Below are positions 8,758-36,489 of a DNA stretch of 42,234 nt, one piece after another. Position numbers and translations under genes: made by a program. The stretch spans positions 1 through 42,234 of the forward strand of contig CAJXDE010000005.1 of NCBI GenBank assembly GCA_913052635.1. The letters run 5' to 3'. Origin of the DNA: an uncultured Halieaceae bacterium. GTDB taxonomy: Bacteria; Pseudomonadota; Gammaproteobacteria; Pseudomonadales; Halieaceae. The notes beneath the pieces are model-generated. The model saw only the letters and a program-made list of their open reading frames with translations, was not told where the DNA came from and searched no databases. Within the stretch, counting starts at the first letter, position 1; the number at the start of each line of letters is the position of its first letter.

Positions 8758-10017
8758 GTGAAGTCAGCAGAGTCGCGAGTCGAGTCGCTGAGCCCATTAT
8801 TGTTAGGCTTGCCAATAGGCTTGATGCTGCTCAACTTATTGCTTCGGCAGGCCGATGCTTTCCCCTCTGAGCTCAGCGACGAGGTCAATTGGTTAGGGCT
8901 AATGCAGCTAATGGAGGGAGGATTTGACCCTCCGGTTTCAGGACCACTGTTTGTCTATGTTATGCAAACGGTGCACGAGCATCTGTCCTTCGGTTTGCCT
9001 GCCATTCTCGATTCCGTCGCCATATTGGGTAGCGGCCTGACCATTGCACTCGTGCTTTCGGGGTATCGGTACCATCTGCCCAATACAGCCTTGATTAAAA
9101 GTGCTGCCATAATGCTGCTCGTCACTAGCTATTTCTTAGCGCCCGCATTGGAAGCTCGTCCCCAGCAACTGGGTATTGCACTGGCTTTCCTCATCTGCCT
9201 GCAAGCTACATCTCAACCTCAGACATCGACCGGCTGTTTGCTGGCTGCGTTGCTTCCTTTAGCGTTCTGGCATGTGCTGTCCTTTTTTGTCGCGATAGCT
9301 TATCTGAGCGTTTGGAAGCTGACTCTCTGGCGGCTTGGTAGCTTGAGGGGTGGAGCAATACTCCTTTGGTTCGTGCTTGCCTCATCTCTTTTGGTGTCGC
9401 TCATTGGGTCTCGCGCTTATCGCTCTCTGCTAGAAGATGTGCTCGCTAACCACTTACCTGACCAGTTCACACTCGCGCTGTTGATTATTTCCTCTGTCTT
9501 GCTGGCGACCTGCTTCTGCGCAGTCCCTGTGAGGCTTTGGAAAAAAGTCAGAGCGCTGTGCCTTTCTCATATAAATGTTGTCGTGGCGATCATTTTTTTA
9601 CTGAGCGCCACGGCGTTGATTTTGCAGTGGCGACTGCTGCCTAGCACGGCCTTACAGGATTACGGTGGCTCCGCGGTAATTTTTTGCATGTGGCATGCTG
9701 GCAACGTGGGGTTTTGTTTCTGTTACATGCTGGGCCTTAAGCTCTGCCTCACGGGAGAGGTCAAGGGGCTGCAGGCATTCGTCATTGGATCTCTAATATT
9801 GCTGGTTTTGGCATCCTTCGCCTTGCTCGCGTCGTTCTTCTTGGCCCATGTGAACTGGATGATAAGAATCCTTTATTTTTGGGTTCCCTTTGCTGCGCCA
9901 TTAAGCGCACTTGGGTTGGGAAAGTTACTTTCTCATGCCGGTAAATTCCGCCATTTCATCCTCGTTTGCCTTTTTATGGCTAGCCTCAGTCATGTTGTTA
10001 GATTGTCAATACTTTGA
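8758..10017 (+). CDS. Polytopic integral membrane protein of unknown function (possible GT-C-fold glycosyltransferase)
   Basis: 419 aa with about 10 or more hydrophobic segments; acidic pair near the first loop (SDEVNW) and an EARPQQLGIAL motif resemble GT-C membrane glycosyltransferases. GTG start. Confidence 0.6.
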   Translation: MKSAESRVESLSPLLLGLPIGLMLLNLLLRQADAFPSELSDEVNWLGLMQLMEGGFDPPVSGPLFVYVMQTVHEHLSFGLPAILDSVAILGSGLTIALVLSGYRYHLPNTALIKSAAIMLLVTSYFLAPALEARPQQLGIALAFLICLQATSQPQTSTGCLLAALLPLAFWHVLSFFVAIAYLSVWKLTLWRLGSLRGGAILLWFVLASSLLVSLIGSRAYRSLLEDVLANHLPDQFTLALLIISSVLLATCFCAVPVRLWKKVRALCLSHINVVVAIIFLLSATALILQWRLLPSTALQDYGGSAVIFCMWHAGNVGFCFCYMLGLKLCLTGEVKGLQAFVIGSLILLVLASFALLASFFLAHVNWMIRILYFWVPFAAPLSALGLGKLLSHAGKFRHFILVCLFMASLSHVVRLSIL

Positions 10018-10028
10018 ATTTGGGAGCC

Positions 10029-11075
10029 CTATTGCATTTTGAGGGGCGCAGTCTCATCAGCGCGGAGGTCCATGGCGACCAGATTTTTACCGATAGTCGC
10101 GCCGCGCATCATCTCGCTATAGGCCCAGCCGGCATTGGGCAGGCCCTCGGTAATGTTCTCCAAAACAGTGATCTCACCCGCCCGGACCCAATCGTGAAGC
10201 TGCTCAGAGGCCGCCGGCACTTTATCCATGTAGGTATAGAGCAGGAAGCCTCTCATGGTGAGTTCTTTCTCCACCAGTTTCCACATGTTGTAAATCGGGG
10301 TTGGATTATCCTGATCGTTATAGTCGCTGATCATGCCGCAGCCAATCACACGGCCAAACGTGTTCATACATGCGAGTGCCGCGTTCAGTGTCGTGCCCCC
10401 GACATTGTCGAAATAGACGTCGACGCCCTCGGGGCGGGCTTGCGAAATGGCGGTAGCGAGATCACCGCAGGTCTTGTAATTCAATGCTGCATCGGCGCCC
10501 AATGTTTTTGTCACCAGCTCAGCCTTTTCGTCACTGCCAACGATGCCAACGACGTTGCAGCCGCGCAATTTGGCGATCTGGGTGGCCATAGAACCGGTAG
10601 CGCCGGCTGCTGCACTAATGAGCACGGTTTCTCCCATTTTGATCTTGCCAATTTCGTGGAGGCCGACGTACGCCGTGTGGCCTGAGCCGCCCAGCCCGCC
10701 GGAGTAGTAGGAGAGGGGTATGTCGGGCTCGGGTGACAGCTTGGAGAGCAGCACCGTATTGGCATCGCTGAGCGAATAATCCTCCCAGTGATGTAGGCCA
10801 AAAATCAGATCGCCGGCTTCAAAGCCCGCAAGGTGAGATTCAACGACCCGGGCAACCGAGGGTCCACGAATGGCGCCGCCAAGCGGGATCGGCTCAAAGT
10901 AGTTCGCTTTGCCATCTAGCCAGCCCCGGATCGCGGCCTCCAAAGAGAAAAATAGGTTGCGGACCAGCATCTGCCCTTCACTTGGCTGGGCGATAGAGCA
11001 CTCGACCAAATCGAAATCTTCCGGCAACGGTATGCCTTGTGGGTGGCGTTTTAAGACGATCTGGCGGTTGAGCAT
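10029..11075 (-). CDS. NADP-dependent oxidoreductase, zinc-independent MDR family (CurA/PTGR-like)
   Basis: Start at MLNRQIVLKRHPQG; VLISAAAGATGSMATQIAKLRGCNVVGIVGSDEKAELV...GVDVYFDNVGG...RVIGCGMISDYN is typical of the leukotriene B4 dehydrogenase/PTGR-like group. Confidence 0.9.
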   Translation of the reverse strand: MLNRQIVLKRHPQGIPLPEDFDLVECSIAQPSEGQMLVRNLFFSLEAAIRGWLDGKANYFEPIPLGGAIRGPSVARVVESHLAGFEAGDLIFGLHHWEDYSLSDANTVLLSKLSPEPDIPLSYYSGGLGGSGHTAYVGLHEIGKIKMGETVLISAAAGATGSMATQIAKLRGCNVVGIVGSDEKAELVTKTLGADAALNYKTCGDLATAISQARPEGVDVYFDNVGGTTLNAALACMNTFGRVIGCGMISDYNDQDNPTPIYNMWKLVEKELTMRGFLLYTYMDKVPAASEQLHDWVRAGEITVLENITEGLPNAGWAYSEMMRGATIGKNLVAMDLRADETAPLKMQ

Positions 11076-11211
11076 TCTGTGCTCCTTGAGTGGCGTTTCA
11101 GCTGGAGTTCGCACGATGGCGCAGAGACGTTATATTGTCACGGTTGGCAGAGACGATGCCATGTCGGTGCTTCGATAACACAGTGCGTTAATAAAAAAGT
11201 GCGTCGCTAAC

Positions 11212-12585
11212 ATGAACAAACCGCAGCTCGAAATTCCCGTCCTGAACATCCCGGTCCACCCCGAGACAATGGATGGTCGAGACCCGACTTTACTGCGGGG
11301 CGATACCATTTCAGGTGATCGATACTACTCAGCAGAGTTTGCGAGCGCCGAATGGAAGCACATGTGGACCAAGATCTGGCATGTGGCGGGGCGACTGGTG
11401 GAGCTCGAGGAGCCCGGCGATTTTGTGGTGCACGACTTCATGGGGCAGTCGGTGATCTGTGCGAAGCAAGAGGATGGGTCTATTCGGGCTTTCTACAACG
11501 TCTGTCAGCATCGCGCGCTGCGACTGGTGGAGGAAAGTTCGTCGGTTAAAGACTTTCATTGTCGTTATCACGGTTGGGTGTGGGGCATCGACGGTGTGTT
11601 GAAATCGGTGCAGGACCCCGAGAACTTCTCGCAGGGCGACCCCCGCGGAAAGCTTAAGCTCAAGGAATTGCGGTGCGACACCTGGGGCGGCTTTGTTTGG
11701 TACAGCTTCAGTGATGACAGCCCGGGGCTTATGGATTACCTGCACCCGTTACCCGAGATTTATAAAAACTATCCCATGGAGACGGCAGTCAGGATCTTTG
11801 CCCGCAAGATTCGCCTCAACACTAACTGGAAGTTCGCGTCGGTCAACTTCAGTGAGTCGTACCACACGCGCACTGCACACCCGCAGGTGCCACCGTGGAT
11901 TGATCAGGACTACTGGAGCGCGCGGTCGGAGATTTGGCCCAACGGGCATGGACGGACGGTGCAGCCGATGCGCCCGAGCCTGCGCGATCGGCTACCCGAA
12001 GGCGAGCCACACCCCTTTGATGACATTCTCCGCATGTGGGATATCGACCCTGACGGCTACCCGGACTTTGAAGCCAAAGCGATTCAGGGCTGGATGGACC
12101 TCAAGGAGGCTAAGCGAAAGCATTGGAAGGAAAAGGGCTACCTGCACTACGAGCACATGAACGACGAGGAGCTCACCGACAGTCCGCACACGGTTATTTT
12201 TCCGAACGTGACGATTTCTTTTCTGCCTGACAACCTGATTTTTTTTCGCACTGAGCCTGACCCAAAAGACCCCGCTAAATGCACCTTCGACCTATGGTGC
12301 ATGGCGTTCCCTGTTGAGGGGCAGGCCGAGGCCCACGGCATCATGACCCAAGGGCTGTTCCCGGTGACCGAATGCGAATCAGAAACCCTAGATTTTGATG
12401 GCGGGCAGGGAATTCCTGAAATCGTGGACTCGATCGTGTGGCAGGACATGATGCTCTCAGAGGCGCAGCAGAATGGCTGGGAGTCGAGAGGCTTCGACGA
12501 TTACTATTTGGCTGATCAGGAGTCGCGGGTGCGTTATTTTCATGAGGTGCTGAACGATTACCTCGCGGGTTGCAAGGGGGGCTAA
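11212..12585 (+). CDS. Rieske [2Fe-2S] ring-hydroxylating oxygenase alpha subunit
   Basis: CQHRALRLVEESSSVKDFHCRYHGW (CxH...CxxH Rieske motif) and NFSESYHTRTAHP mononuclear iron motif. Confidence 0.95.
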   Translation: MNKPQLEIPVLNIPVHPETMDGRDPTLLRGDTISGDRYYSAEFASAEWKHMWTKIWHVAGRLVELEEPGDFVVHDFMGQSVICAKQEDGSIRAFYNVCQHRALRLVEESSSVKDFHCRYHGWVWGIDGVLKSVQDPENFSQGDPRGKLKLKELRCDTWGGFVWYSFSDDSPGLMDYLHPLPEIYKNYPMETAVRIFARKIRLNTNWKFASVNFSESYHTRTAHPQVPPWIDQDYWSARSEIWPNGHGRTVQPMRPSLRDRLPEGEPHPFDDILRMWDIDPDGYPDFEAKAIQGWMDLKEAKRKHWKEKGYLHYEHMNDEELTDSPHTVIFPNVTISFLPDNLIFFRTEPDPKDPAKCTFDLWCMAFPVEGQAEAHGIMTQGLFPVTECESETLDFDGGQGIPEIVDSIVWQDMMLSEAQQNGWESRGFDDYYLADQESRVRYFHEVLNDYLAGCKGG

Positions 12586-12701
12586 CGAGCGCCTGAGGCT
12601 GATGCCGTTGCTGTAGGGTTGGTTGCTAGCCCTCCTGTGCGGGCCACAACGATTGGCGATCTCAATGAGCATTAGAAAAAGTATGAGGAGTATGGGCGGC
12701 A

Positions 12702-13262
12702 ATGAAACGAGCAGTATGGTTAGCCACGCTGATGTGGTGCTGGATGGGGACGATGTCTGTGCAGGCGAATGATCACGACGTGGCCGAGATGTTGGCTAAG
12801 CACGAGATTGAGTATCTCCAGAGACTCTATGCCCGAGCCACGGATCAAATCGGCACCAATGTGCCGGAGAACATCGAAGCCGGCCGAGCGGTCTACCACA
12901 GGATCTTCACTCAGGATGCCACGATTCGCGCCAGTGACCCCACCAGCGCGGAGTTCCGGGTGGTCGGCCCCGATGAGTGGGTGAAGGTGGTGGACGGCGC
13001 GCTCTCGGTATTCGATTCCACGCAGCACCTGCTGGGCACCCAGATTGTGGAGCTCGACAGCTTGCCCGATGCCGACGGAAAAGGCGGTGAGGGCAAGATG
13101 AGTAGCTTTCTGCAAGCGTGGCACCAAGATTATGATCGTGTGATCGATATCTATTTGGGTACTTACTACAGCAAAGTCCGTTACACCCAGGGCATCGGCT
13201 GGCAGATTTATGACATGCGTCTCGAGAAGGTGGCTGGCGAAGTCATTGATAAGCGGCCGTAA
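12702..13262 (+). CDS. SnoaL/NTF2-like protein with predicted signal peptide
   Basis: MKRAVWLATLMWCWMGTMSVQA-ND signal-peptide-like N-terminus; EIEYLQRLYARATDQ...YHRIFTQDATIRAS...GWQIYDMRLEK resembles NTF2-like domains. Confidence 0.7.
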   Translation: MKRAVWLATLMWCWMGTMSVQANDHDVAEMLAKHEIEYLQRLYARATDQIGTNVPENIEAGRAVYHRIFTQDATIRASDPTSAEFRVVGPDEWVKVVDGALSVFDSTQHLLGTQIVELDSLPDADGKGGEGKMSSFLQAWHQDYDRVIDIYLGTYYSKVRYTQGIGWQIYDMRLEKVAGEVIDKRP

Positions 13263-13301
13263 GCTGTCTGGACAGCAGATATTTGATTAGCTGGAGAGAT
13301 A

Positions 13302-14636
13302 ATGAACGCAGCAAACCCCGTGATCCTTGAACGCGCATTGACCCGGCCACCCAGAGAGGCTGAGCTGCAGCTGCGCGGTGACTCTGTAGGCAGTGACCGC
13401 TATACCTGCGGAGGCTACTTGCAGCGCGAGTACCAAAAGGTATGGCACACCGTCTGGAATATCGGTGGGGTGGCGTATCAAATGCCGGAGCCCGGTGACT
13501 ACCTCACTACCGAGCTGGGGATCGACTCCATCATCCTGGTTCGCCAGGAGGATGGTTCGGTCAAAGCGTTTTTTAACTCCTGCCCGCATCGTGGCACCCG
13601 TATCACTGAGGCAGAGGATGGGCACGTGCAGGAATTCTCCTGCCCCTATCACGGCTGGACCTTTGACCGCGCGGGGGTGGTGACTTCAGTACCCGATGAA
13701 GAGGATTTTGCGGAGAGTCCCTGCGGTAAAGCCCGACTGAAGGAAATGCGCTGCGAGGAACGATTCGGGTTGATCTGGTACAACTTCGATCTCGATGCGC
13801 CGACGTTGGATGCCAGCCTGGGCGAGACGATTTGTCGTGAGCTCGAGTCACACCGGATCGAGGACATGCTCCGAGTGCTGGATATGACCGCCGAGACCCA
13901 CAGTAATTGGAAGATCATCACCGATAACTTTAACGAGGCCTACCACGTCAAAGTGCTACATCCCGAGCTGATCCCCTATGTCGCGGCAGACTACGAGGAT
14001 TGCCAGTTCGATTGTCTCCCTAATGGCCACAATCGCGGATGGTTCCCCTCGTTTATGCCCTCTGTGCAATACGGTAGCGACATCATCGGTGAGCCGTTAA
14101 AAAGTATGGCTGCCGCTTGGGAGGTGAACAGCGACGATTACGTGGGCCGCGATACCTGGCAGCAGCTGCGGGTGGATATTCAGGCCGCCAAGCGCGAACA
14201 CGGTGAGAGGCAGGGCTACGTTCATTACGGCTATCGTGCGGATTACCAGCTCACGGACTATGTGATTTACAACTTGTTTCCCAACAATGTGATTACGGTG
14301 GGCCCGGATGGCGTGCAACTGTTGCGCCCGCGCCCGCACCCGACGGATCCTACGCAGTGTCTCTTCGACCATTGGTGGTTGGTGAATCGTGTCGAAGGAC
14401 AAGAGATGACACCGTCGCCGGCGGGTGGGCCAGACCTGCCGGTTGCCGACGCGCCCCATGAGCATATTCAGTATGGCGAGAAGACGCTGGGTACCACGGC
14501 CGATCAAGACCTGAGCATCGCCGAGATGCAGCAGAAAGGTCTGGCATCAGCGGGGTATCAGGGGTACTGGATGCCCAATCAAGAGCGTCGGGTGCAGGCC
14601 TTTCACGAGCACCTGAACGATTTGATGTCCGACTGA
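13302..14636 (+). CDS. Rieske [2Fe-2S] ring-hydroxylating oxygenase alpha subunit (second copy)
   Basis: CPHRGTRITEAEDGHVQEFSCPYHGW Rieske motif; NFNEAYHVKVLHPEL catalytic iron motif. Confidence 0.95.
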   Translation: MNAANPVILERALTRPPREAELQLRGDSVGSDRYTCGGYLQREYQKVWHTVWNIGGVAYQMPEPGDYLTTELGIDSIILVRQEDGSVKAFFNSCPHRGTRITEAEDGHVQEFSCPYHGWTFDRAGVVTSVPDEEDFAESPCGKARLKEMRCEERFGLIWYNFDLDAPTLDASLGETICRELESHRIEDMLRVLDMTAETHSNWKIITDNFNEAYHVKVLHPELIPYVAADYEDCQFDCLPNGHNRGWFPSFMPSVQYGSDIIGEPLKSMAAAWEVNSDDYVGRDTWQQLRVDIQAAKREHGERQGYVHYGYRADYQLTDYVIYNLFPNNVITVGPDGVQLLRPRPHPTDPTQCLFDHWWLVNRVEGQEMTPSPAGGPDLPVADAPHEHIQYGEKTLGTTADQDLSIAEMQQKGLASAGYQGYWMPNQERRVQAFHEHLNDLMSD

Positions 14637-14696
14637 CCATGTCGCAGCGGTCCCCGTCTTGCAGCATTGTTGCTGTTTTCCGTTGAGTCGAGATAG

Positions 14697-15815
14697 ATGA
14701 CGAGTCCTCAAGCTGGTGACGCTGCCGATTGGGGCCCGGGGGCGGGCGCGTGGGAGGCGTGGTCTCGCACCGTGATACAAAATCGTCTCGCGCAACACGC
14801 GCGGGGTATCGATCGGGCGGACGAGGCTCTTCTGCAAGAGGCTTATCAGGGCGACGGCACCGTTGATTATGGTTCACTACAAGGCTCGGCGGCGGAGTTT
14901 GCGGCAGCGATTGCGGCGATGCACGACGGCGCGCCCATGTCCTCGCACCGCACCAGCAATATGTGGATTGTGATTGGAGGTCACAGTGCCATGAGCGAAA
15001 GCTATGTGATGGCCTGGGTGACCCTGCCTACCGACGGTGATTCCCTGCCGCACCTGGTAGGGGGCCGGTACCTCGATCGGCATAGCTACAAGCACGATAA
15101 CTGGCGCATGCAACACCGGCACTACGTGCTGGACTGGATTACCCAATTTCCCTCACCCCAGCCCGCAGCGGCCCGACCGGCGTTTGCGCCCCAGACTTTC
15201 GGCCCCCAGGGAGCGCACTTCCCGTGGGACGCGGGCAGTGCTCTGATGGCAGCACATGCAAGCTCAAACACACCGATGAAGGAGAGTGCTCCGATGGATC
15301 AAACCCAAGCGCTTGAAGAAGTGATCGCACAACAGGCGATAGCAGAACTGGGCTGTCGTTACGCGCGCGGCGTTGACCGGGGTGACCCCGAGATCATCCG
15401 TTCTGCGTTTCACGATGATGCCGCTATTGTGTCCGGTGCCTTCAACGGCCCTGCTGTGGAGTTTGCCACTGCGATTGGCGAGCTGCTCGATGAGACTTCG
15501 GTACGGGTTGCCCACACGGTGACGAATCACTGGATCGACATTGATGGGGACCATGCGGTGGGAGAGAGTTACGTAGTTGCTTTTCAGGGCACCAAAGGTG
15601 ACTCGCCTCAGGATGTGATGACGGGCGGGCGTTATATCGATCGTTATGAGCGCCGCAGTGATGAGTGGAAGATCAGCCACAGGACCTTTGTGATGGATTG
15701 GACGACCTCTGCCGATTCCAAAGACCTGATGGGGTTGGGCATGTTCGAGGACATGGTGAAGGGCGAGCGGGGCAAGGGTGACCCGGTTTACGCGTTTTGG
15801 CAGGCGGCGGTCTAA
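14697..15815 (+). CDS. Tandem two-domain SnoaL/NTF2-like protein
   Basis: Two similar domains: ...VIQNRLAQHARGIDRADEALLQEAYQGDGTVDYGSLQGSAAEFAAAI... and ...IAQQAIAELGCRYARGVDRGDPEIIRSAFHDDAAIVSGAFNGPAVEFATAI..., joined by a Pro/Ala-rich linker. Confidence 0.8.
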   Translation: MTSPQAGDAADWGPGAGAWEAWSRTVIQNRLAQHARGIDRADEALLQEAYQGDGTVDYGSLQGSAAEFAAAIAAMHDGAPMSSHRTSNMWIVIGGHSAMSESYVMAWVTLPTDGDSLPHLVGGRYLDRHSYKHDNWRMQHRHYVLDWITQFPSPQPAAARPAFAPQTFGPQGAHFPWDAGSALMAAHASSNTPMKESAPMDQTQALEEVIAQQAIAELGCRYARGVDRGDPEIIRSAFHDDAAIVSGAFNGPAVEFATAIGELLDETSVRVAHTVTNHWIDIDGDHAVGESYVVAFQGTKGDSPQDVMTGGRYIDRYERRSDEWKISHRTFVMDWTTSADSKDLMGLGMFEDMVKGERGKGDPVYAFWQAAV

Positions 15816-15833
15816 TCCTCTCTTCTTTTAGCT

Positions 15834-17840
15834 GTGGTGAATACGATGAGTTTTGAAGGCGAACAGACAGGGCCAGTGTTAGTAGCGGGCTTTCGGCCGA
15901 TGATCGGCCTTGCGATATTACTCGTTATCTTCATCGGGGCGATCCCGGCACACGCCAACGTGGAATCGCCTAATTCGGCCGCCTATCAGGAGGTCACGGT
16001 GCCGCTGGACCCCGAAACAAAGGCGGTGGGTGGTGCACTCTATGCCCAGCATTGCGCGGCCTGTCACGACAGCAACATGGTGCGCGCACCGCAACGTTAC
16101 GTGTTGGAAAACGTCTCGCCCAGCACGTTACTCGCGGCAATGATTGACGGCCCAATGCGCGAAGTGGCGGCTGACTTGTCTCTTGAGCAAAAAACCGCGG
16201 TGGCTGAGTACATCGCCGAGCGCAAAATCACCGAGACGAACACCGCTGAGGCGGGCATCGCCTGTGAGGCTGCCGTCCATGAGTTCGATTTGTCTCAAAC
16301 GCCAGTGTTTCAGCATTGGGGCCTGAATGCTGGGGCCAGTCATTTCATGTCTCCGTCGGTGGCGCGCGTCACCAGGAAAAATATTGCCTCATTAAAGTTG
16401 GACTGGACCTTTGCTTACCCGGATGCCACCCGGGCGCGTTCGCAACCGGCATTCGGTGCGGGCGCCATGTTTGTGGGCAGTCAGAGTGGCTTGGTTTACG
16501 CGTTCGACGTCGAGACTGGCTGCACCCGCTGGCAATTTCAGGCATCGAGTGAGGTGCGCAACGGACTGACACTCGAGCCCTGGGACACCGCTGTCAAATC
16601 CGTTGATCCGCTGCTTTTTTTTGGCGATCTCACGGGCAATCAATATGCCGTCTCGGCGCTGACTGGTGAGTTGCGATGGAAAAAGCGGATTGAGGATCAC
16701 AGTGCCGCCACACTGACGGCCGCCGCAGAATTATCTGAGGGCGTGCTGTACGTGCCGGTCTCTTCCTTAGAGGAGGGCGCGGCAATCGCCGCCGGCTACC
16801 CCTGTTGTTCCTTCAGAGGATCGATCGTGGCGCTCGATGCCAAGTCTGGCGAAGAGCTGTGGCGCCGGCATTTCATTCCCCCTGCGGAACAGCGCGGCGT
16901 TAACGCCGCGGGCACGCCTCAGTACGGCCCCAGCGGTGTGCCGATCTGGGCCGGCATGGCCATGGATGCGGATCATCTGTACATCGCCACCGGGGATGAC
17001 TATTCGGGAGAAGGGTCGGAAACCAGCGACGCCGTTATCGCATTAGATAAAGCCTCGGGCAGGACGGTCTGGGTCCGCCAGGCGCGCTTTGGCGATGTAT
17101 GGAATGGATCCTGCGAGAACGTTGATCCCGTGAACTGCCCCGAGGATAACGGCCCCGACTATGACTACGGTGCAGGGCCAGTGATCAGTGAAGATTCGCA
17201 GGGCCGGCCTATTATTCTCGCAGGAGACAAAGGCGGGGTTGTGACCGCGATGCTGGCTGAGACCGGCGAATCGCTCTGGAAAACCAAGGTTGGCCGGGGC
17301 GGTGTGGTGGCCGGCGTTAATTTTGGACTCGCGGCCCACGATGGCAAGGTCTTCGTGCCGATCAGTGACGCGCCGGATGGCCGGGATTACGATGAGCCCG
17401 CGCGACCCGGAGTCTATGCGCTAAACGTTGATAACGGTGAGTATGTTTGGCAGGCGCCGGCAGGCGAGGACGTTTGTCTTGGCAGACCCGGTTGCTACCC
17501 TGGATATTCGGCCGCGATTTCGGTAACAAGCGATTACGTACTGGCGGGCTCAAATGAAGGTTGGTTGAGGGCCTTCGATATCGACAACGGAGAGGTGCTG
17601 TGGGAGTTCGACACCACTCAGGCGTTCACTGCAGTCGATGGTCGCATAGCGCAAGGCGGTTCAATCGGTGGTGGTCAGGCGCCGCTTATTGTTGGTGATC
17701 GACTGATATTGAATTCGGGTTATGCCTTCGCCGGCAAGATGCCGGGCAATGCATTACTGGTCTTCAAGTTGCCAGCGAGCGACGCGCAGGTAGCGGCGGG
17801 GTCCGGTGCTCAGGTCTTACAGGAGAGCGCCGCGAAATAA
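15834..17840 (+). CDS. PQQ-dependent dehydrogenase with N-terminal cytochrome c domain (polyvinyl-alcohol-dehydrogenase-like)
   Basis: N-terminal hydrophobic segment, CAACHD haem motif, then repeated quinoprotein blades (GELRWKKR, GEELWRRHF, GRTVWVRQ, GESLWKTKVGRGG, GEYVWQAP, GEVLWEF). Confidence 0.9.
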   Translation: MVNTMSFEGEQTGPVLVAGFRPMIGLAILLVIFIGAIPAHANVESPNSAAYQEVTVPLDPETKAVGGALYAQHCAACHDSNMVRAPQRYVLENVSPSTLLAAMIDGPMREVAADLSLEQKTAVAEYIAERKITETNTAEAGIACEAAVHEFDLSQTPVFQHWGLNAGASHFMSPSVARVTRKNIASLKLDWTFAYPDATRARSQPAFGAGAMFVGSQSGLVYAFDVETGCTRWQFQASSEVRNGLTLEPWDTAVKSVDPLLFFGDLTGNQYAVSALTGELRWKKRIEDHSAATLTAAAELSEGVLYVPVSSLEEGAAIAAGYPCCSFRGSIVALDAKSGEELWRRHFIPPAEQRGVNAAGTPQYGPSGVPIWAGMAMDADHLYIATGDDYSGEGSETSDAVIALDKASGRTVWVRQARFGDVWNGSCENVDPVNCPEDNGPDYDYGAGPVISEDSQGRPIILAGDKGGVVTAMLAETGESLWKTKVGRGGVVAGVNFGLAAHDGKVFVPISDAPDGRDYDEPARPGVYALNVDNGEYVWQAPAGEDVCLGRPGCYPGYSAAISVTSDYVLAGSNEGWLRAFDIDNGEVLWEFDTTQAFTAVDGRIAQGGSIGGGQAPLIVGDRLILNSGYAFAGKMPGNALLVFKLPASDAQVAAGSGAQVLQESAAK

Positions 17841-19162
17841 TCTTGGCTCGCTGTGGCCACTTTCGGGGCGAGGAGGATAGAACTGATCATTGTGGGGATC
17901 GCCATCAGCCCGTAGCTCGCCGAGATCAGATTGAAGACCACATCAATGCTCACGGTTGCACCAAAGATGACCGCGAGGACAAAGAACCAGCGAAAGTAGG
18001 GCTGCCACTGTGCGCCGACTAAAAAGCCGAAGCACTTTGCGCCGTAGTACCAGCCAGTAAACATGGTGGTGGTGCTCAGTATCAGTGCGACAAACCCGAG
18101 CAGCACGAGCCCCAAGCCCCCCATCTGACCTTGAAAGGCGTTCGCTGTGAGCGTGATGCCCGAAAGTTCACCGGGCTGCTGCCAATTACCGGAAAGTAAA
18201 ATGACGATGGCGGTGCAGGTGCAGACGATCAAGGTGTCAAACACCGGGCCCAGCGTGGCGAGCATGCCCTCGCGGATCGGCTCATTGGTTTTCGCGGCGC
18301 CATGGGCCATGACTTCTGTACCCACCCCGGCTTCATTCGAGAAGGCCCCGCGACTGATGCCTATCAGCATAACGCCCAGAAATCCGCCGCCGACCGCAGT
18401 CGGCGACAGGGCCTCGCTGACAATACTCAACAAGATGCCGGGCACGCCGCTCAGATGATTGATGACTACCCAAGCCGTCATCAGTAGATAGACGGTCACC
18501 ATGGTGGGCAGAAGCGCGATCGCCACATTAGCCACCCTTGGCAGGCCACCGAAGATCACGCTGCCAATGACGCTAGCGAGCGACACGCCGATTAACAGCG
18601 GAGCCCAAGCCGGGGCGCTTCCACCGAACGCAGTATCCTGAATGAGTGCAGTGAGTTGATTGGCCTGAAACATTGGCAGCGTGCCGATCAAACCTGCCAA
18701 AGCGAACAACACAGCCAGCGGATAAAAGGGCTTTGGCAGTGCTTCTCTAATCACGTACATCGGGCCGCCCTGCAGATTGCCCAGTGAGTCTTTTCCCCGG
18801 TACATGACACCGAGAGAGCAGGTAAAGAACTTCGTCGCGATGCCGACAATCGCCGAGACCCACATCCAGAACACGGCTCCTGGGCCGCCGGCGACGATGG
18901 CGAGCGCCACGCCCGCAATATTACCCAGCCCCATGGTGTTAGAAAGCGCTGCGGCCAAGGCCTGTTTGTGTGAGATCTCACCTGCAGCATCAGGGGTGTC
19001 GTAGCGCCCAAGTAGAACAGCAATGCCGTGGCCCATGTGTCGATAGGGAGTCGCGCGCGAGATGAAGCAGAAGAACAAACCGCCGCCAAGAAGCAATATG
19101 ACGAGCGGAGTGCCCCACACGGTATCGGCGAATTGTTGTGCAAAGGTTTCAAGACTATTCAT
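17810..19162 (-). CDS. Alanine/glycine:cation (sodium) symporter, AGCS family
   Basis: AALSNTMGLGNIAGVALAIVAGGPGAVFWMWVSAIVGIATKFFTCSLGVMYRG...FSNEAGVGTEVMAHGAAKT is typical of AGCS transporters. Confidence 0.93.
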   Translation of the reverse strand: MNSLETFAQQFADTVWGTPLVILLLGGGLFFCFISRATPYRHMGHGIAVLLGRYDTPDAAGEISHKQALAAALSNTMGLGNIAGVALAIVAGGPGAVFWMWVSAIVGIATKFFTCSLGVMYRGKDSLGNLQGGPMYVIREALPKPFYPLAVLFALAGLIGTLPMFQANQLTALIQDTAFGGSAPAWAPLLIGVSLASVIGSVIFGGLPRVANVAIALLPTMVTVYLLMTAWVVINHLSGVPGILLSIVSEALSPTAVGGGFLGVMLIGISRGAFSNEAGVGTEVMAHGAAKTNEPIREGMLATLGPVFDTLIVCTCTAIVILLSGNWQQPGELSGITLTANAFQGQMGGLGLVLLGFVALILSTTTMFTGWYYGAKCFGFLVGAQWQPYFRWFFVLAVIFGATVSIDVVFNLISASYGLMAIPTMISSILLAPKVATASQDYFAALSCKT

Positions 19163-19311: not shown

Positions 19312-20622
19312 ATGAATGTAGAGCCCACCAAGCAGCAAAATATGCGTCGTGTAGCGCTGACCTCACTCGCAGGCACCAGTATCGAGTGGTACGACTTCTT
19401 CCTTTATGGCACGGCCGCCGCTGTCATTTTTCCCAAGGCGTTTTTCCCTCAAGATTTGCCGCCTATGGTGCTGCTGATTATTTCTTTCAGCACCTTTGCG
19501 GTGGGGTTCATTGCCCGGCCTCTCGGTGGTGTGGTGTTCGGCCACTTTGGGGATCAGGTGGGCCGAAAGCGCACGTTGGTGATCGCGCTCATGATGATGG
19601 GTGTGGCCACTACGTTGATTGGGCTCTTGCCCACTTATGAGTCTATTGGGATTGCCGCGCCGCTCATGCTGGTTGCGTTGCGCTTCATACAGGGCCTTGC
19701 CGTGGGCGGGCAGTGGGGTGGTGCCATGCTATTGGTCACTGAGAGCGCGCCGTCTGAAAAGCGCGGTTGGTACGGCGCCTATGCGCAGGCGGGTGCCGCG
19801 GTAGGGGTCATTCTGGCGAATCTCGCGTTTTTGTCCGTGAGCACCTCCATGAGCGATGAGGCATTCATAGACTGGGGCTGGCGGCTGCCCTTTATTGCCA
19901 GCATTGTCCTCATCGGTATCTCGCTTTATGTGCAGTTGCGCATGGAGGACACCGAGGCATTCAAGGCGCTCAAAGCCTCGCAGGCGGAAGCGGGCGAGCA
20001 GGCATCAGTGCCAAAATCTCCCGTGCTGGAGGCCATCCGCCGCTATCCCCGGCGAATCATGCTGGCAGCGGGTGCCTTTCTGTCCGTTCAGGTCACCTTT
20101 TACATTCTGATCGCATTCGTCATCGCCTATGGGTTGAATTCGCCGTCGGTGGAACTGACCCGGGATGAAATGCTGACGTCGGTATTGATCGCCGCCGCGG
20201 CGATGATCCCGGCGCTGTTTTACTCCTCCGGCTTGTCAGACCGGGTGGGACGGAAGCAGATTTATCGCTGGGGTGCCGTTTTGACGGGCGTCTGGGGTTT
20301 TGCGCTGTTCCCGCTGATTGATACCGGCAGTCCTTTGATGATCACGCTGGCTGTGACTGTCGGCATGATCTTTCTCGGTATGCAGTATGGCCCACAAGCT
20401 GCTTATTTCACTGAACTTTTTTCGACAGAAGTGCGTTACTCGGGAGCCTCGCTGGGGTATCAGATTGGGGCGATTTTGGGCGGCGCATTGGCGCCCACTA
20501 TTGCTGTCTTATTGTGGACCGAGTTGGGTATCTTTTACGTGTCGCTCTACATTCTGTTGGCTGCTAGCCTCACTCTGTGGTCCTTGTCTCAGTTGGAGGA
20601 GACGGGGGGTCGGTCGCTATAG
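19312..20622 (+). CDS. MFS transporter, metabolite:H+ symporter (MHS) type
   Basis: TSLAGTSIEWYDFFLYGTAAAVIFPKAFFP...ARPLGGVVFGHFGDQVGRKRTLV is the MHS family N-terminus. Confidence 0.93.
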   Translation: MNVEPTKQQNMRRVALTSLAGTSIEWYDFFLYGTAAAVIFPKAFFPQDLPPMVLLIISFSTFAVGFIARPLGGVVFGHFGDQVGRKRTLVIALMMMGVATTLIGLLPTYESIGIAAPLMLVALRFIQGLAVGGQWGGAMLLVTESAPSEKRGWYGAYAQAGAAVGVILANLAFLSVSTSMSDEAFIDWGWRLPFIASIVLIGISLYVQLRMEDTEAFKALKASQAEAGEQASVPKSPVLEAIRRYPRRIMLAAGAFLSVQVTFYILIAFVIAYGLNSPSVELTRDEMLTSVLIAAAAMIPALFYSSGLSDRVGRKQIYRWGAVLTGVWGFALFPLIDTGSPLMITLAVTVGMIFLGMQYGPQAAYFTELFSTEVRYSGASLGYQIGAILGGALAPTIAVLLWTELGIFYVSLYILLAASLTLWSLSQLEETGGRSL

Positions 20623-20775: not shown

Positions 20776-21621
20776 ATGAGCTACGAATGTTTCGAACTCG
20801 AGGTTACCAACGGCATCGCCCACATCCGGTTGAATCGTCCCGAGAAAGCGAACTCGATGATTCCGTCCTTCTGGACAGAGCTTCCAGCCGCAGTAAACAC
20901 CCTATCAAGGGAGGCCTCTGCGCGCGTGCTGGTCATCTCTGCGGAGGGCAAGCACTTCTCCTCCGGGATGGACATATCGGTATTCACCGACGGCGGATTA
21001 GACGGCCCGGCGGGTACTAACCCCAGCATCGGAGCAGAGGCGTTCCGCCATCACTGTATGGCGCTCCAGAGTGCGTTCACTTGTCTGGAGGAAGCACGCA
21101 TGCCCGTTTTAGTAGCTATTCAGGGGGCTGCGGTCGGTGGCGCCATGGATTTCATCACGGCGTGTGATTGCCGTTATGCCACCAAGGACGCCTTCTTCTC
21201 AATCCACGAGACCGCCATTGGAATGACCGCAGATGTCGGCACATACCCGCGCTTGGTCAAGCTGATTTCTGAGGGTTGGGCGCGGCAAATGTCCTACACG
21301 GCTGAGCGGATTGGTGCGGAAAAAGCCCAATCGATTGGCCTGGTGAACGAGGTCTATGACTCGACAGAGGAAATGCTTGAAGCGGTCATGGGAATCGCCA
21401 AGCAGATTGCTGCGAACTCCCCGCTTGCCGTTACCGGTGCGAAGCGCATGGTCAACTATGCCCGAGATCACAGCACAGCAGACGGCCTTGATTACATCGC
21501 GACGTGGAACGCATCGATGTTAGATGGTGACGCAATCCGCCAAACCTTCATGGCTCAAGCTAAAGGGGACGAACCCGAATACGAGGACTTACTCGCAGTT
21601 AAGAAAACCGCAGGTGAGTAA
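20776..21621 (+). CDS. Enoyl-CoA hydratase/isomerase family protein (dienoyl-CoA isomerase-like)
   Basis: HFSSGMDISVF, GAAVGGAMDFITACDCRYATKDAFFSIHETAIGMTADVGTYPRLVKLI resembles ECH1-type crotonases. Confidence 0.9.
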   Translation: MSYECFELEVTNGIAHIRLNRPEKANSMIPSFWTELPAAVNTLSREASARVLVISAEGKHFSSGMDISVFTDGGLDGPAGTNPSIGAEAFRHHCMALQSAFTCLEEARMPVLVAIQGAAVGGAMDFITACDCRYATKDAFFSIHETAIGMTADVGTYPRLVKLISEGWARQMSYTAERIGAEKAQSIGLVNEVYDSTEEMLEAVMGIAKQIAANSPLAVTGAKRMVNYARDHSTADGLDYIATWNASMLDGDAIRQTFMAQAKGDEPEYEDLLAVKKTAGE

Positions 21622-22133: not shown

Positions 22134-22928
22134 CTAACCCCACTCGGGGTCGCGTTTTTCCAGAAAAGCGCCGATACCTTCGTGTGCGTCGCCGTCAGAG
22201 GTGAGGTTATCGCGCATCACCTGATTGGCCAGCTCGAACGCCTTATCAAGAGGCATTTCCACCTGCTGATAAAAAGCCGATTTGCCCCGGGCAATACTCT
22301 CGGCCGAGCGAGACGCAATCTTGCTCGCTAATTCCTGGGTTGCCTGCTCCAGTTCGGACGCGGGGACAGACCGGTTGATGAGCCCAAAGCGTTCGGCAGT
22401 AGCCGCGTCGAATTGATCACCCGTCAGTGCCATTTCCAGTGCGTGCTTTCGGGACAGATTCCGACCGATACCGACCAATGGCGTGGTGCAGAAGGCGCCG
22501 ATATTGACTCCCGGCGTGCAGAAGGTGGCGTCCTCGGAGGCAATAGCCAGATCGCAGGCAGAGACCAGTTGGCAGCCCGCGGCGCTGGCGATCCCCTGTA
22601 TGCTGGCGATGATGGGTTTGGGGGCGTGCAGGATGCTCGCCATCATGGCCGCGCAATCCTGTAATAGCTGATCGATTCGCGCCTGCCAGTCGCCCTGATC
22701 CTCATTGTCGCGACGGCGCGTTTCCCGCAGGTCATGCCCCGCGCTAAAAGCGGGGCCGGCGGCCTTGATCACAATGACCCGGGTGTCCGAGTTGGCATTA
22801 CCGGAGGCAATGGCTCCCGACAGCGCGGCAATCATGTCGCTGGACAGGGGATTGCGGTGCTCGGGTCGATTCAGCGTGACAGACAGCACCGCATCTTTTT
22901 CGCTTGTGATCACTAGCGAGTCAGTCAT
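22134..22928 (-). CDS. Enoyl-CoA hydratase/isomerase family protein
   Basis: LNRPEHRNPLSSDMI...FSAGHDLRE...GIASAAGCQLVSACDLAIASEDATFCTPGVNIG; start chosen at MTDSLVIT. Confidence 0.9.
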   Translation of the reverse strand: MTDSLVITSEKDAVLSVTLNRPEHRNPLSSDMIAALSGAIASGNANSDTRVIVIKAAGPAFSAGHDLRETRRRDNEDQGDWQARIDQLLQDCAAMMASILHAPKPIIASIQGIASAAGCQLVSACDLAIASEDATFCTPGVNIGAFCTTPLVGIGRNLSRKHALEMALTGDQFDAATAERFGLINRSVPASELEQATQELASKIASRSAESIARGKSAFYQQVEMPLDKAFELANQVMRDNLTSDGDAHEGIGAFLEKRDPEWG

Positions 22929-22985
22929 GAACAGCGTCCCGGGCAATAAGGCATGTCTTGGCGCTGAAAGCGCTCATGCGTTACC

Positions 22986-24368
22986 TCATTGTACGCGATA
23001 GTTCTTGATATCGATGGGCGCCACGCCTTTTTCTGATCGCGGTGTGCCCTCAGGGACCCAGTCATAAGGAATGGGCTGCGCGCGGAACACCCAGTTGGTG
23101 GAAACGGTTCGGTTTTCGGTGTTCAAGGAGGTGTAGGTTTGCGAGCCAAAGTGGGGGTTCACATATTCCCATACGATGTCCGCGGCTGGTGTGACCTGAA
23201 ACATGCGACCGTTCATCCCTTCGTTTATCAGCGTATTGCCATTAGGTAGCCGGCGGGCACTGGAGATGAAGGAGCTCGCGAAGGTCCAGCTTGCGGCGCC
23301 TGACTCTACCGCTGTGTATTGCCAAACAATCTGTTTCTCAATGGGATCAATCTCGAGGATTCGTGACCCATAAAATAGCGGCAGCCGGGTCGCCGGATAC
23401 CCGGAAGGCGCAACGTTATCAAAAACCAGCAGGTTGCCTGCGCCAGGCAGCCCTTTGGGGATAATGTGTGCATCGTGTTGGCCACTGGTCTGATCAACCG
23501 GACGGGGTACGTAGGTATCAAGCCGGGGTCTGAGTTCTGCCGACGACTGAGTGGGATAATCTGGGCCGATTCTCCAAACAATGTCACCCGATGTTTTTTC
23601 TATGATAGCGATGAAGCTTGCTTCCCTAGAATCGATAACGATGTTGTCGGGGTGAAAGCGCGTGTCGCCGGCGTCAAACCACTTGTTGGGGCCAATAGGT
23701 GCCATGTCATTAATGGTGATGAATCCTGCTCGCAGCCCCCCCGTTTCTTCAATCAGTTCTCGCCAGAGGTTTAGCCCTTCTTCCGACAGCCCAAACTGAT
23801 CTAGGTGAAGCCCAGCGGACCAGCGCCATACCACTTCTCCACTAGGGCTAACTTCAACGATGTGCTCGTCGGTAATGGGTTTTGTCTTGGAGAGCGCCAG
23901 GACCAGTTGCGGGACTGCCACAACCGCCAGCGTGTTGCCATTTGGCAGCCTTGCCCAGTCGTGGCTTTGGTCGGCGCCCTCTCCATTTTCGCCGCGCCAT
24001 GACCACACCGTTTCGCCGTCCCAGTCGACTTCACCGATGGCAACGTTGTTGAAAATGCCTCCCCACATACCTTCGTTGTTTTCAATTTGAACCAAGATAT
24101 GGCCTTTCTTCCCATCATTCAGGGTTGGATCCAGCATTTCCGCAGGAAAGCCAGGCCGGTCCCATTGGTTCACCTCGTTTCCATCCATATCAATAAGATG
24201 TGTATTCCCCGTTGGTGCGGAAAAGAGCACGTATCCGTTCCATGCTCGCTCGGGGTCATAGATCGTCGTGCCAGTAGGGAAGATGGTGGGGTTCGCCACC
24301 GCCGTAGGAGCGACGATTGCTAAAAAGCAGAACGTAAAACTGCTTAAAGCTAAGCCAGTAACGCGCAT
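22986..24368 (-). CDS. Arylsulfotransferase (ASST)-like exported protein
   Basis: Signal-peptide-like N-terminus; GYVLFSAPTGNTHLIDMDGNEVNQWDRPGFP...SHDWARLPNGNTLAVV...HIVEVSPSGEVVWRW...NGNTLINEGMNGRMFQVTPAADIVWEYVNP, ASST-like repeats. Confidence 0.8.
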   Translation of the reverse strand: MRVTGLALSSFTFCFLAIVAPTAVANPTIFPTGTTIYDPERAWNGYVLFSAPTGNTHLIDMDGNEVNQWDRPGFPAEMLDPTLNDGKKGHILVQIENNEGMWGGIFNNVAIGEVDWDGETVWSWRGENGEGADQSHDWARLPNGNTLAVVAVPQLVLALSKTKPITDEHIVEVSPSGEVVWRWSAGLHLDQFGLSEEGLNLWRELIEETGGLRAGFITINDMAPIGPNKWFDAGDTRFHPDNIVIDSREASFIAIIEKTSGDIVWRIGPDYPTQSSAELRPRLDTYVPRPVDQTSGQHDAHIIPKGLPGAGNLLVFDNVAPSGYPATRLPLFYGSRILEIDPIEKQIVWQYTAVESGAASWTFASSFISSARRLPNGNTLINEGMNGRMFQVTPAADIVWEYVNPHFGSQTYTSLNTENRTVSTNWVFRAQPIPYDWVPEGTPRSEKGVAPIDIKNYRVQ

Positions 24369-24615: not shown

Positions 24616-25272
24616 ATGTCTCGAATCACGACGGGCCTATTTCTGGCGCTCACCTGTGGTCTGGGGATGTCAGCACAGGCCGGGGTCGAATTTATTGACT
24701 ATGGCTACGCCCGATTTTCACAGGACGTGACCGAGTGTGATCGCCTGGCCTCACATGGTTGGGACCCCGGTCATGTCGCGGCCGCTGTCAGCAGCGGCGG
24801 GATGAATAAGCCCGCTGCGATCGCCGCCTGCCAACGAGCGGTGGCCGCGGACCCCAATAACCCCAGGCTCAACTATCAGCTCGGCCGCGCGTATGGCTAT
24901 TCGGGTCGGGGCGAAGAGGCGATGCCCTACCGACTGAAGGCGCTCGAAGCCGATTATCCCCAGTCGCTGTTTGTTATCGGATACCTGTACTCCATTGGCC
25001 GCACCATCCAGCCCGATATCTGCAAAACCTACGAGCTGTGGCAACGGGCCGCACGCTACCGGCGTCTTGCTGCATTGGTTGCGCTCCCCAGACATAGCCT
25101 GCGCGGAGATTTTGAGGCCTGCGGCCCGGCTATTTCGCCTGAGGATCTCCGGGCTTACTTGAATGAGGCGAAAGCGCAATCGAACGACTACTACGTGGGG
25201 ATGTTGGTAGATGACCTGCTGGCCGAGGTAGATGAACGCTATCCGACGCAAGTTGGTGAGACTGATGGCTAG
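24616..25272 (+). CDS. Exported TPR/Sel1-like repeat protein
   Basis: Signal-peptide-like N-terminus (LFLALTCGLGMSAQA); NYQLGRAYGYSGRGEEAMPYRLKALEADYPQSLFVIGYLYSIG repeat-like helices; ATG at 24616 preferred over TTG at 24610. Confidence 0.6.
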   Translation: MSRITTGLFLALTCGLGMSAQAGVEFIDYGYARFSQDVTECDRLASHGWDPGHVAAAVSSGGMNKPAAIAACQRAVAADPNNPRLNYQLGRAYGYSGRGEEAMPYRLKALEADYPQSLFVIGYLYSIGRTIQPDICKTYELWQRAARYRRLAALVALPRHSLRGDFEACGPAISPEDLRAYLNEAKAQSNDYYVGMLVDDLLAEVDERYPTQVGETDG

Positions 25273-26188
25273 CGCATGGCACTGGGTCAGCATTGGCACC
25301 GCCGATATGGGGGCCGCGCTCGATTTCTGGGTGGGTCGGCTTGGATTTGAGTGCGTTGCCCGTGCGGAAGGGGATGACCCGGGTCTGCGCGAACACTGGG
25401 GCGTAACGGATCGCCAGATTGCGCAGCAGGCAATGGTGCGGTCAGCGGGGGCTGAAAATGGTGGTATGCATCTGGTGGAGTGGAATGTGGCCGCCGAATC
25501 CGTGCGCGCAGAGGCACAGGTTTTTGATCTCTGCCCCAAAAATCTTGATATCTACGTCGACGATCTGCCGGTGCGGATGGCCCAGCTAACGGAGCAGGGC
25601 GTGGTATTCCGCAATGAACACTACAGCGAGGCCGTTTCGCCCGACGGGGTGCACTTTCGGGAGATCCATCTGGCGGGTCATGATGATGTCAATATTGTGT
25701 TGCTTCAAGTGATTGGCAGTGATACGCCTATTCCCGATTCAGGATTTTATGGCCTAGGTCCACTGGTGTGTATTGTGAGAGATCCTGCTGAGGAAAAACG
25801 CTTTATTGACACGATATTGGGCCTCTCGCTGTCTCATAACAATATACTCGAAGGGCCCGAAATTGAGGAAATGATTGGCCTGCCGGCGGGTTGCGCGCTC
25901 GAGGTGAGCATCTGGGCTGAGCCCGGTCAGCCGCTGGGGGAGGTGGAGCTGGTGACCTACCATGGCACCGACGGTGCAAATCGCTATCCGCGGGCCCAGC
26001 CTGGTGCAAGAGGGGTCACGCACCTTAACTGGTGGCTAGACGATATCGAGGCCTTTGCCGCGCACCTGACCGAGCAGGGTGTCTCATGCAAGTTGTCTAA
26101 AGTAGAGGGCAGCTTGATCCAATCGTCATCCAGCCTAATATTCCAGTCCCCCGCGGGCTTGCGACTGGAGGCTCATGAGCGGAGCTGA
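25265..26188 (+). CDS. VOC (glyoxalase/bleomycin resistance/extradiol dioxygenase) superfamily protein, two domains
   Basis: WHWVSIGTADMGAALDFWVGRLGFECVAR...FREIHLAGHDDVNIVLLQ...YGLGPLVCIVRDPAEEKRFIDTILGLSLSHN; start MASAWHWVS overlaps the upstream stop. Confidence 0.85.
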   Translation: MASAWHWVSIGTADMGAALDFWVGRLGFECVARAEGDDPGLREHWGVTDRQIAQQAMVRSAGAENGGMHLVEWNVAAESVRAEAQVFDLCPKNLDIYVDDLPVRMAQLTEQGVVFRNEHYSEAVSPDGVHFREIHLAGHDDVNIVLLQVIGSDTPIPDSGFYGLGPLVCIVRDPAEEKRFIDTILGLSLSHNNILEGPEIEEMIGLPAGCALEVSIWAEPGQPLGEVELVTYHGTDGANRYPRAQPGARGVTHLNWWLDDIEAFAAHLTEQGVSCKLSKVEGSLIQSSSSLIFQSPAGLRLEAHERS

Positions 26189-27793: not shown

Positions 27794-28810
27794 GTGGACC
27801 CAGACTGGACAGTCATCGACGGCCTGCAGTACTCGGCTTGGTCGCGTGAGATCTTCGAGCAGATGCACGAGGGCGGCCTCAATGCGGTCCATGTCACGAT
27901 TGCCTACCACGAGAACACCCGTGAGACTCTGACGCGCTTTGGGGAATGGAATCAGCGCTTTGAGGCCTACCCCGATCTGATACGACCCGTATATGAGCCT
28001 TTGGATATTGAGCGCGCCAAGGCAGAAGGGCGCATCGGTATAATTTTCGGTGCGCAGAACTGCTCACCCATCGAAGACGAGATCCGTCTGGTCGAGGTGA
28101 TGCGTCGCCTCGGCCTCATGATCATGCAGCTCACCTACAACAATCAGAGCCTGCTGGCCTGCGGTTGTTATGAGGAAGAGGACAGTGGGCTCACTCGTTT
28201 TGGGCAGCAGGTAATTCGCGAGATGAACCGGGTCGGCATGGTGGTCGACATGTCACACAGCGCCGAGCGGTCCACACTGGAAGCCATCGATTACTCAGAG
28301 CAGCCTGTCATCATTTCCCACGCCAACCCGAGTCACTTTCATCCGGCGTTGCGCAATAAGTCCGACAAGGTGCTGGATGCGGTTGCAGCGAATGAGGGCT
28401 TGTTGGGCTTCTCGCTGTATCCCTTCCATCTCAAAGACGGGCCGCAGTGCACACTGGAGAGCTTCGCTGAGATGGTCGCTTGGACGGCTGAGCGAATGGG
28501 CGTGAATCGCATCGGTTTTGGCTCGGATCTCTGTCAGGCCCAGCCGCAGTCAGTGCTGGAGTGGATGCGCGTTGGCCGCTGGTCGAAGGTCATGGATTAC
28601 GGCGAAGGCTCTGCAAGTGACGCAGGCTGGCCCGAACCACTCGGTTGGTTTGCGGATAATCGGGATTTTCCAGGTATCGTGAGTGCGCTCCGAGCCAAAG
28701 GTTTTTCTGAGGAAGAGCTCGGTTTGATCATGGGTGGCAACTGGGTCGGCTTGCTCACCCGGGTCGCGCAGTCACCCTACGGATTGTTGGAAAGCGGCGC
28801 CGAACCATGA
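27794..28810 (+). CDS. Membrane dipeptidase / peptidase M19 family
   Basis: VIDGLQYS, FGAQNCSPIEDEIRLVEVMRRLGLMIMQLTYNNQSLLACGCYE, VVDMSHSAERSTLEAIDYSEQPVIISHANP, NRIGFGSDL; GTG start at 27794 chosen. Confidence 0.9.
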   Translation: MDPDWTVIDGLQYSAWSREIFEQMHEGGLNAVHVTIAYHENTRETLTRFGEWNQRFEAYPDLIRPVYEPLDIERAKAEGRIGIIFGAQNCSPIEDEIRLVEVMRRLGLMIMQLTYNNQSLLACGCYEEEDSGLTRFGQQVIREMNRVGMVVDMSHSAERSTLEAIDYSEQPVIISHANPSHFHPALRNKSDKVLDAVAANEGLLGFSLYPFHLKDGPQCTLESFAEMVAWTAERMGVNRIGFGSDLCQAQPQSVLEWMRVGRWSKVMDYGEGSASDAGWPEPLGWFADNRDFPGIVSALRAKGFSEEELGLIMGGNWVGLLTRVAQSPYGLLESGAEP

Positions 28811-31295: not shown

Positions 31296-31474
31296 ACACG
31301 ACAGTGAGCTTGGTCATCGAGATCAGAGAGCCCTCTCAGACAGTCTGTGCCGCCGGAGGGTTCACCCCACGGACACACTGGCTTAATGCCCACGATCGAG
31401 CGGTAGCCTGCTTGTTGGGATTTCAGAGACCGTTCGATTCTTGCCTTCTTTTTCTTGAGAGAGGCTATCGATAG
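31292..31474 (+). CDS. Possible small ORF (60 aa) bridging DUF3726-like gene and soxB
   Basis: Start overlaps the upstream stop (ATGA, 31292-31295) and its stop overlaps the soxB GTG start (TAGTG at 31472-31476). Otherwise a 178-bp gap would interrupt a fully overlapping gene series. Confidence 0.45.
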   Translation: MNTTVSLVIEIREPSQTVCAAGGFTPRTHWLNAHDRAVACLLGFQRPFDSCLLFLERGYR

Positions 31475-32721: not shown

Positions 32722-32729
32722 GAGGCGGC

Positions 32730-33032
32730 ATGAAAATCCTCACTTGCCCTTTGAATGGCCCGCGCAATATAACCGAGTTCACCTATGGCGGTCAGGTGAA
32801 GCCCATGCCCAGTCTGACCGAAGCCACCGATCAAGAGTGGGCGCATTACGTGTTTTATGGCGACAACCACATTGGTGTGGTGCGCGAGTGGTGGATGCAC
32901 ACGCCCAGCAATTACTGGTTCATCGTTGAACGCCACAACCAGACCGATGAAGTGATTCGCACCTGTGACCCGGCAGAACTGTTTGATCCGGGTGCTTCAG
33001 CCGCGACGGAACCAGTGGAGGCTGATTCGTGA
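32730..33032 (+). CDS. soxD: Sarcosine oxidase subunit delta (variant)
   Basis: Between soxB and soxA; MKILTCPLNGPRNITEFTYGGQVKPMP...HIGVVREWWMHTPSNYWFIVERH...TDEVIRT matches the SoxD layout. Confidence 0.92.
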   Translation: MKILTCPLNGPRNITEFTYGGQVKPMPSLTEATDQEWAHYVFYGDNHIGVVREWWMHTPSNYWFIVERHNQTDEVIRTCDPAELFDPGASAATEPVEADS

Positions 33033-36480: not shown

Positions 36481-36489
36481 CGCTGCTCG

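Follow-up and report, generated by a model that had tools for sequence, protein, structure and literature searches.

The window, that is, the whole stretch of 42,234 nucleotides that was analysed, corresponds to contig C5 of a MAG (84% complete) of Luminiphilus type, family Halieaceae. It contains a cluster with the order divergent MDR gene (B), Rieske1 (C), SnoaL1 (D), Rieske2 (E), double SnoaL (F) and cytochrome c-PQQ (G). B (10029-11114, minus strand), which diverges from C, encodes a zinc-type MDR enone reductase resembling CurA and leukotriene B4 12-HD (PF16884, 101.7 bits; PF00107, 96.9 bits), with a score of 293 bits against the NCBIfam CurA profile (cut-off 440). On the plus strand, C (11212-12585) and E (13302-14636) encode Rieske oxygenase alpha subunits of 457 and 444 residues, both matching PF00355 and PF00848, D (12702-13262) encodes a SnoaL_4 protein of 186 residues (PF13577, 37.3 bits, cut-off 24), F (14697-15815) a protein of 372 residues in which two SnoaL_4 domains are fused in one chain (PF13577, 138.6 bits over two stretches, cut-off 24), and G (15834-17840) a cytochrome c-PQQ-type dehydrogenase of 668 residues (PF01011, 95.4 bits). 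The intergenic gaps measure 116 bp (C-D), 39 bp (D-E), 60 bp (E-F) and 18 bp (F-G), so that D to G at least could form one operon. Convergent with G, and overlapping it by 31 bp, is H (17810-19162, minus strand), an AGCS sodium:solute symporter gene (TIGR00835, 358 bits over cut-off); further downstream are I (19312-20622, plus strand), encoding an MHS-family MFS transporter (TIGR00883, 398 bits, cut-off 443), two crotonase genes (20776-21621, plus strand; 22134-22946, minus strand) and a gene for a VOC protein (25232-26188, plus strand). Pfam and NCBIfam profile matches place all of the genes and families named in a sequence-only reading of this DNA where that reading had put them; the fusion of two domains in F and the signal-peptide-like start of D had escaped it. 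The window also encodes a 419-residue membrane-like protein (8758-10017), which matches no Pfam or NCBIfam profile, adjoins the cluster and is conserved at 88-90%; an arylsulfotransferase-fold (ASST) protein with a signal-peptide-like start (22986-24368); and a 578-residue protein without a Pfam match (28807-30543), 77% kept in locus L046, between an M19 dipeptidase and a DUF3726 protein.

The entire C-D-E-F-G series is found in five relatives (G091, G099, G105, G067 and G061) at ~70-98% identity, in agreement with the earlier proposal of a real oxidative cluster, and in other Luminiphilus relatives the series is interrupted by contig ends. H is retained by most relatives, and I is also retained by relatives. 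Among 140 Halieaceae genomes, F occurs in 16, the window's own included, either in full (41-92%) or cut short by a contig end, and E, the most widely retained Rieske gene of the set, occurs in 24. Each of the 16 F-bearing genomes has E (in one as a partial gene at the edge of a contig), versus 9 of the 124 others, a co-occurrence with p ~5e-15 that treats genomes which are not independent and is uncorrected for relatedness. Furthermore, parts of the cluster recur in other arrangements, several of them with a CoA module composed of a CoA ligase, two acyl-CoA dehydrogenases (ACADs) and an SDR. E, B and a G paralogue (~41%) come together again beside this module in G104, G059, G108 and G078; B again adjoins Rieske2 and the PQQ protein in loci L067, L068, L078 and L079; and F and G share one locus with the module in G112. 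The pairing of oxygenase and quinoprotein, which the sequence-only reading had singled out as unusual, thus recurs in a second gene arrangement. These recurrences bear on whether the genes are chance neighbours, that is, unrelated operons alongside a PQQ protein of some other pathway. C, F and G are absent from certain relatives with D and E (for instance G094 and G095), as would be expected of chance neighbours, but the E-MDR-PQQ and F-PQQ pairings recur in differing arrangements and the gaps from D to G are short, and we consider this explanation quite unlikely. The linkage within the cluster is beyond chance.

SnoaL_4 genes do not all show this linkage: of 16 loci with generic SnoaL_4 paralogues in the family, only 5 have a Rieske gene within 1.5 kb. 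In G112 and G015, a C-type Rieske gene and a SnoaL gene overlap or are almost contiguous (L072, 10492-10956; L074, 8110-8661), which suggests translational coupling there. Outside the family, Novosphingobium pNL2 and Sphingobium TomTYG65 carry homologues of E (40-42%), C (45-49%) and F (40-42%) within ~9 kb, accompanied by NTF2 and SDR genes. The multi-Rieske/NTF2 region of Novosphingobium aromaticivorans pNL2 (E homologue 40%, C homologue 45%) resembles the window in this gene content and differs from it in having a P450, a third Rieske type and another gene order; unlike the Luminiphilus cluster, the pNL2 stretch has no annotated PQQ gene. The linkage of SnoaL to Rieske genes is therefore conserved in Luminiphilus and partly in sphingomonads; an absence of conserved linkage would have spoken against the original proposal. 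A search of open-licence papers returned no description of such a cluster, and the gene set is apparently a coherent, undescribed variant.

Both oxygenases belong to the Rieske superfamily, with the Rieske CHCH and the HHD iron ligands intact. The bridging residue is Glu in every C/E-type alpha subunit, and Asp in 9 of 9 alpha3-beta3 references. CntA is an alpha3 homotrimer in which Glu205 (E205) carries intersubunit electron transfer (PMC7948474). As cited in the same paper, Asp is also the bridging residue in phthalate dioxygenase (PMC7948474), so only the Glu side of this comparison is informative. In the tree, the alpha3-beta3 references form one group (support 100/99) with C and E outside it, whereas the CntA branch is long and weakly placed, and C and E lie far from it. 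Together, the bridging residue and the tree suggest that C and E are of the homotrimer type.

The Glu residue raises the question of whether C and E are Rieske demethylases of quaternary amines that feed the sarcosine-oxidase-like genes downstream (31.5-36.5 kb). Indeed, C and E share the CHCH and HHD ligands and the bridging Glu with CntA and GbcA, and GbcA is their best NCBIfam match. The scores, however, are 94 and 117 bits, far from the equivalog cut-off of 670, the sequences are distant from both proteins, and no reductase gene adjoins C or E. SnoaL proteins, an enone reductase and a CoA module fit poorly with demethylation, and relatives place E with the CoA module instead. On score and context, GbcA/CntA-type demethylation is unlikely, and the full scheme ending in sarcosine oxidation appears very improbable. 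The region 31474-37491, which holds the sarcosine-oxidase-like genes (a DAO protein and a large alpha subunit with Fer2_4/GCV_T) together with Ldh_2-like proteins, all next to an M19 dipeptidase and an ALDH, is probably a separate amino-acid or betaine operon.

F has no visible export signal. An AlphaFold2 model of F contains two NTF2-like domains; it reached pLDDT 81.7 with a 31-row alignment and pLDDT 36 from the single sequence. The fold is lyase-like, and the best matches of the model in a fold search are Lsd19, the scytalone-dehydratase-like protein 3ef8, LinA, BaiE and LdpA, in agreement with the F profile, in which LinA (38.5 bits), a scytalone-dehydratase-like protein and BaiE rank above any beta subunit. 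A search of a viral fold library gave nothing useful. At the positions corresponding to the BaiE/LinA-type site, domain 2 has Y222, D227, H273 and R329, and domain 1 has H34, D39, H84 and R141. In 10 of 10 beta subunits the position of Y222 is Glu, but Asp, His and Arg are shared by several of them, so the site of F is suggestive of catalysis and no proof of it. Domain 2 resembles the SnoaL_4/NTF2 lyases BaiE/Hsh2 7alpha-dehydratase, LinA and scytalone dehydratase in its fold and in the Tyr/Lys-Asp-His-Arg positions, whereas F differs from them in having two fused, unequal domains, with His replacing Tyr in domain 1. Like F, the polyether epoxide hydrolases Lsd19/MonB have two NTF2 domains, and Lsd19 (3rga) is the top Foldseek match; unlike in those systems, there are no polyketide genes near F, and the identity is ~12% with a whole-chain TM of 0.28, so only single domains are well matched. 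We read F as a putative stand-alone enzyme, either a lyase, an isomerase or an epoxide hydrolase, in which one domain may be catalytic and the other degenerate. In other Halieaceae, separate tandem SnoaL_4 genes of an H-type and a Y-type (L060, 9270-10389; L062, 9435-10537; L061, 9951-11084) are oriented divergently to a third Rieske type, and F has the appearance of one such H-type/Y-type pair fused together.

D begins with a basic and then a hydrophobic segment that ends in a signal-peptidase-like site, and 9 of 9 true orthologues have the hydrophobic segment although its letters vary. D is therefore probably a periplasmic SnoaL_4 protein, whereas C and E have no export-like N-terminus. Alone, D has no convincing match in the PDB (phmmer), and its profile matches two NTF2-like entries, 3b8l and 3ef8.

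The sequence-only reading had suggested that the SnoaL proteins are diverged beta partners of the Rieske alpha subunits, which would make C and E parts of alpha3-beta3 oxygenases. The NTF2 fold is common to SnoaL proteins and beta subunits, Rieske and SnoaL genes are adjacent (with overlap or near contact in L072 and L074), and F has a weak match to Ring_hydroxyl_B (PF00866 type), at 19.8 bits below the cut-off of 27. Against a beta-subunit HMM, however, F domain 2, F domain 1 and D score only 6.9, -2.4 and 5.0 bits, compared with 182-243 bits for true beta subunits, a contrast somewhat inflated by the presence of the latter in the HMM training set. The top 50 fold matches of F include no named beta subunit, and 3b8l among them is labelled only 'putative aromatic ring hydroxylase'. 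Furthermore, C and E have the bridging Glu and lie apart from the alpha3-beta3 clade, D looks exported and they do not, and G062 and G098 retain C and E without D. The Rieske partner is not fixed either, since related SnoaL_4 pairs stand beside another Rieske type elsewhere in Halieaceae. The cluster has none of the marks of an alpha3-beta3 system, namely a PF00866-type beta subunit, a clade with bridging Asp and a linked ferredoxin and reductase. The proposal that the SnoaL proteins are beta partners thus does not hold up, and we regard it as highly unlikely.

G has a strongly hydrophobic, signal-peptide-like N-terminus, an N-terminal CAACH haem-c motif and a vicinal CC in the propeller. Quinohaemoprotein alcohol dehydrogenases, including polyvinyl alcohol dehydrogenase, can have their haem domain at the N-terminus. 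G resembles these enzymes in its PQQ propeller, CXXCH motif, export segment and vicinal Cys pair, and differs from them in falling under the TIGR03075 cut-off (103 of 480 bits); its haem domain profile, at 24.0 bits, is under the cut-off of 27, and none of the structure matches of G covers a haem domain at this position. These features point to a putative periplasmic dehydrogenase of the quinohaemoprotein type. A search for pqqC came up empty in the window's own genome (84% complete) and in six tested relatives, so the cell may not make its own PQQ for G; pqqC is present in G099, G112 and G104. PQQ-type dehydrogenases without pqqC in several Luminiphilus genomes may reflect MAG gaps or PQQ scavenging.

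As the sequence-only reading had observed, the cluster has no ferredoxin or ferredoxin reductase gene, and none is found among the window ORFs scanned. With two probes, a dedicated Rieske reductase was found neither in the cluster nor in the genome, and PF14759 had no match in the genome. The genome does contain candidate [2Fe-2S] ferredoxins elsewhere; the search retrieved NqrF, an Isc-type ferredoxin beside an Hsp70-like gene, a P450-linked ferredoxin and others. In the genome that the window comes from, the CoA module is found on contig C91, and in some relatives it adjoins E, B and the PQQ gene. E and F share one locus with it in G062, G098 and G015, and orthologues of Rieske2 and F stand with it in loci L045, L050 and L051. 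In G099, rated 100% complete, the window cluster is present but a close orthologue of ACADa is not. The module may act in the same pathway.

The CoA module and the fold of F both bear on a further explanation, a cluster for steroid or bile-acid degradation with BaiE/Hsh2-type dehydratases. BaiE and Hsh2 are NTF2-like dehydratases (PMC12175502), there is a resemblance to steroid side-chain genes in the two ACADs and in a thiolase-DUF35 pair, and steroid degraders, predicted or isolated, are known from Halieaceae/OM60 (PMC5790920, PMC4810484). However, KshA_C (PF19298), which is present in other Halieaceae, had no match in G000, the window's own genome, or in seven cluster-bearing relatives (G091, G099, G067, G105, G061, G062 and G112), and the associated thiolase keeps CATGG, whereas Sal2/Ltp2 are without the catalytic Cys. 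The classical steroid route was set aside on the KshA result in these eight cluster genomes. The 9,10-seco route is unlikely, and a steroid or bile-acid cluster more broadly is also improbable, if somewhat less so than the demethylase and beta-partner explanations.

We therefore favour, with moderate confidence, a modular pathway of hydroxylation, elimination and oxidation or reduction that comprises the Rieske enzymes E and C, F as the lyase, B, G and D, together with the CoA module. The substrate, probably an alcohol or acid with a cyclic or branched structure, would be imported and degraded aerobically by a route bypassing KshA; we agree with the earlier reading that the substrate itself is not readable from the sequence. 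C and E, as homotrimer-type Rieske monooxygenases, would hydroxylate it in the cytoplasm with electrons supplied by a shared ferredoxin system that is encoded at another place in the genome. F, also cytoplasmic, could then carry out water elimination, double-bond isomerisation or epoxide opening, and B would reduce the resulting enone. In the periplasm, G may oxidise an alcohol and D may act on substrate or product, and the CoA ligase, the two ACADs and the SDR would continue the degradation.

More tentatively, the combination of a Glu-type Rieske oxygenase with a fused SnoaL_4 protein could be a dedicated hydroxylate-then-eliminate module in marine Halieaceae and sphingomonads, performing ring opening or desaturation by an undescribed route. 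Since the fold is shared, SnoaL products encoded next to Rieske genes are easily mistaken for beta subunits. Their apparent role as separate lyases changes the annotation of such clusters and offers a testable two-step chemistry, and the cluster suggests that marine Luminiphilus uses a carbon source not yet characterised.
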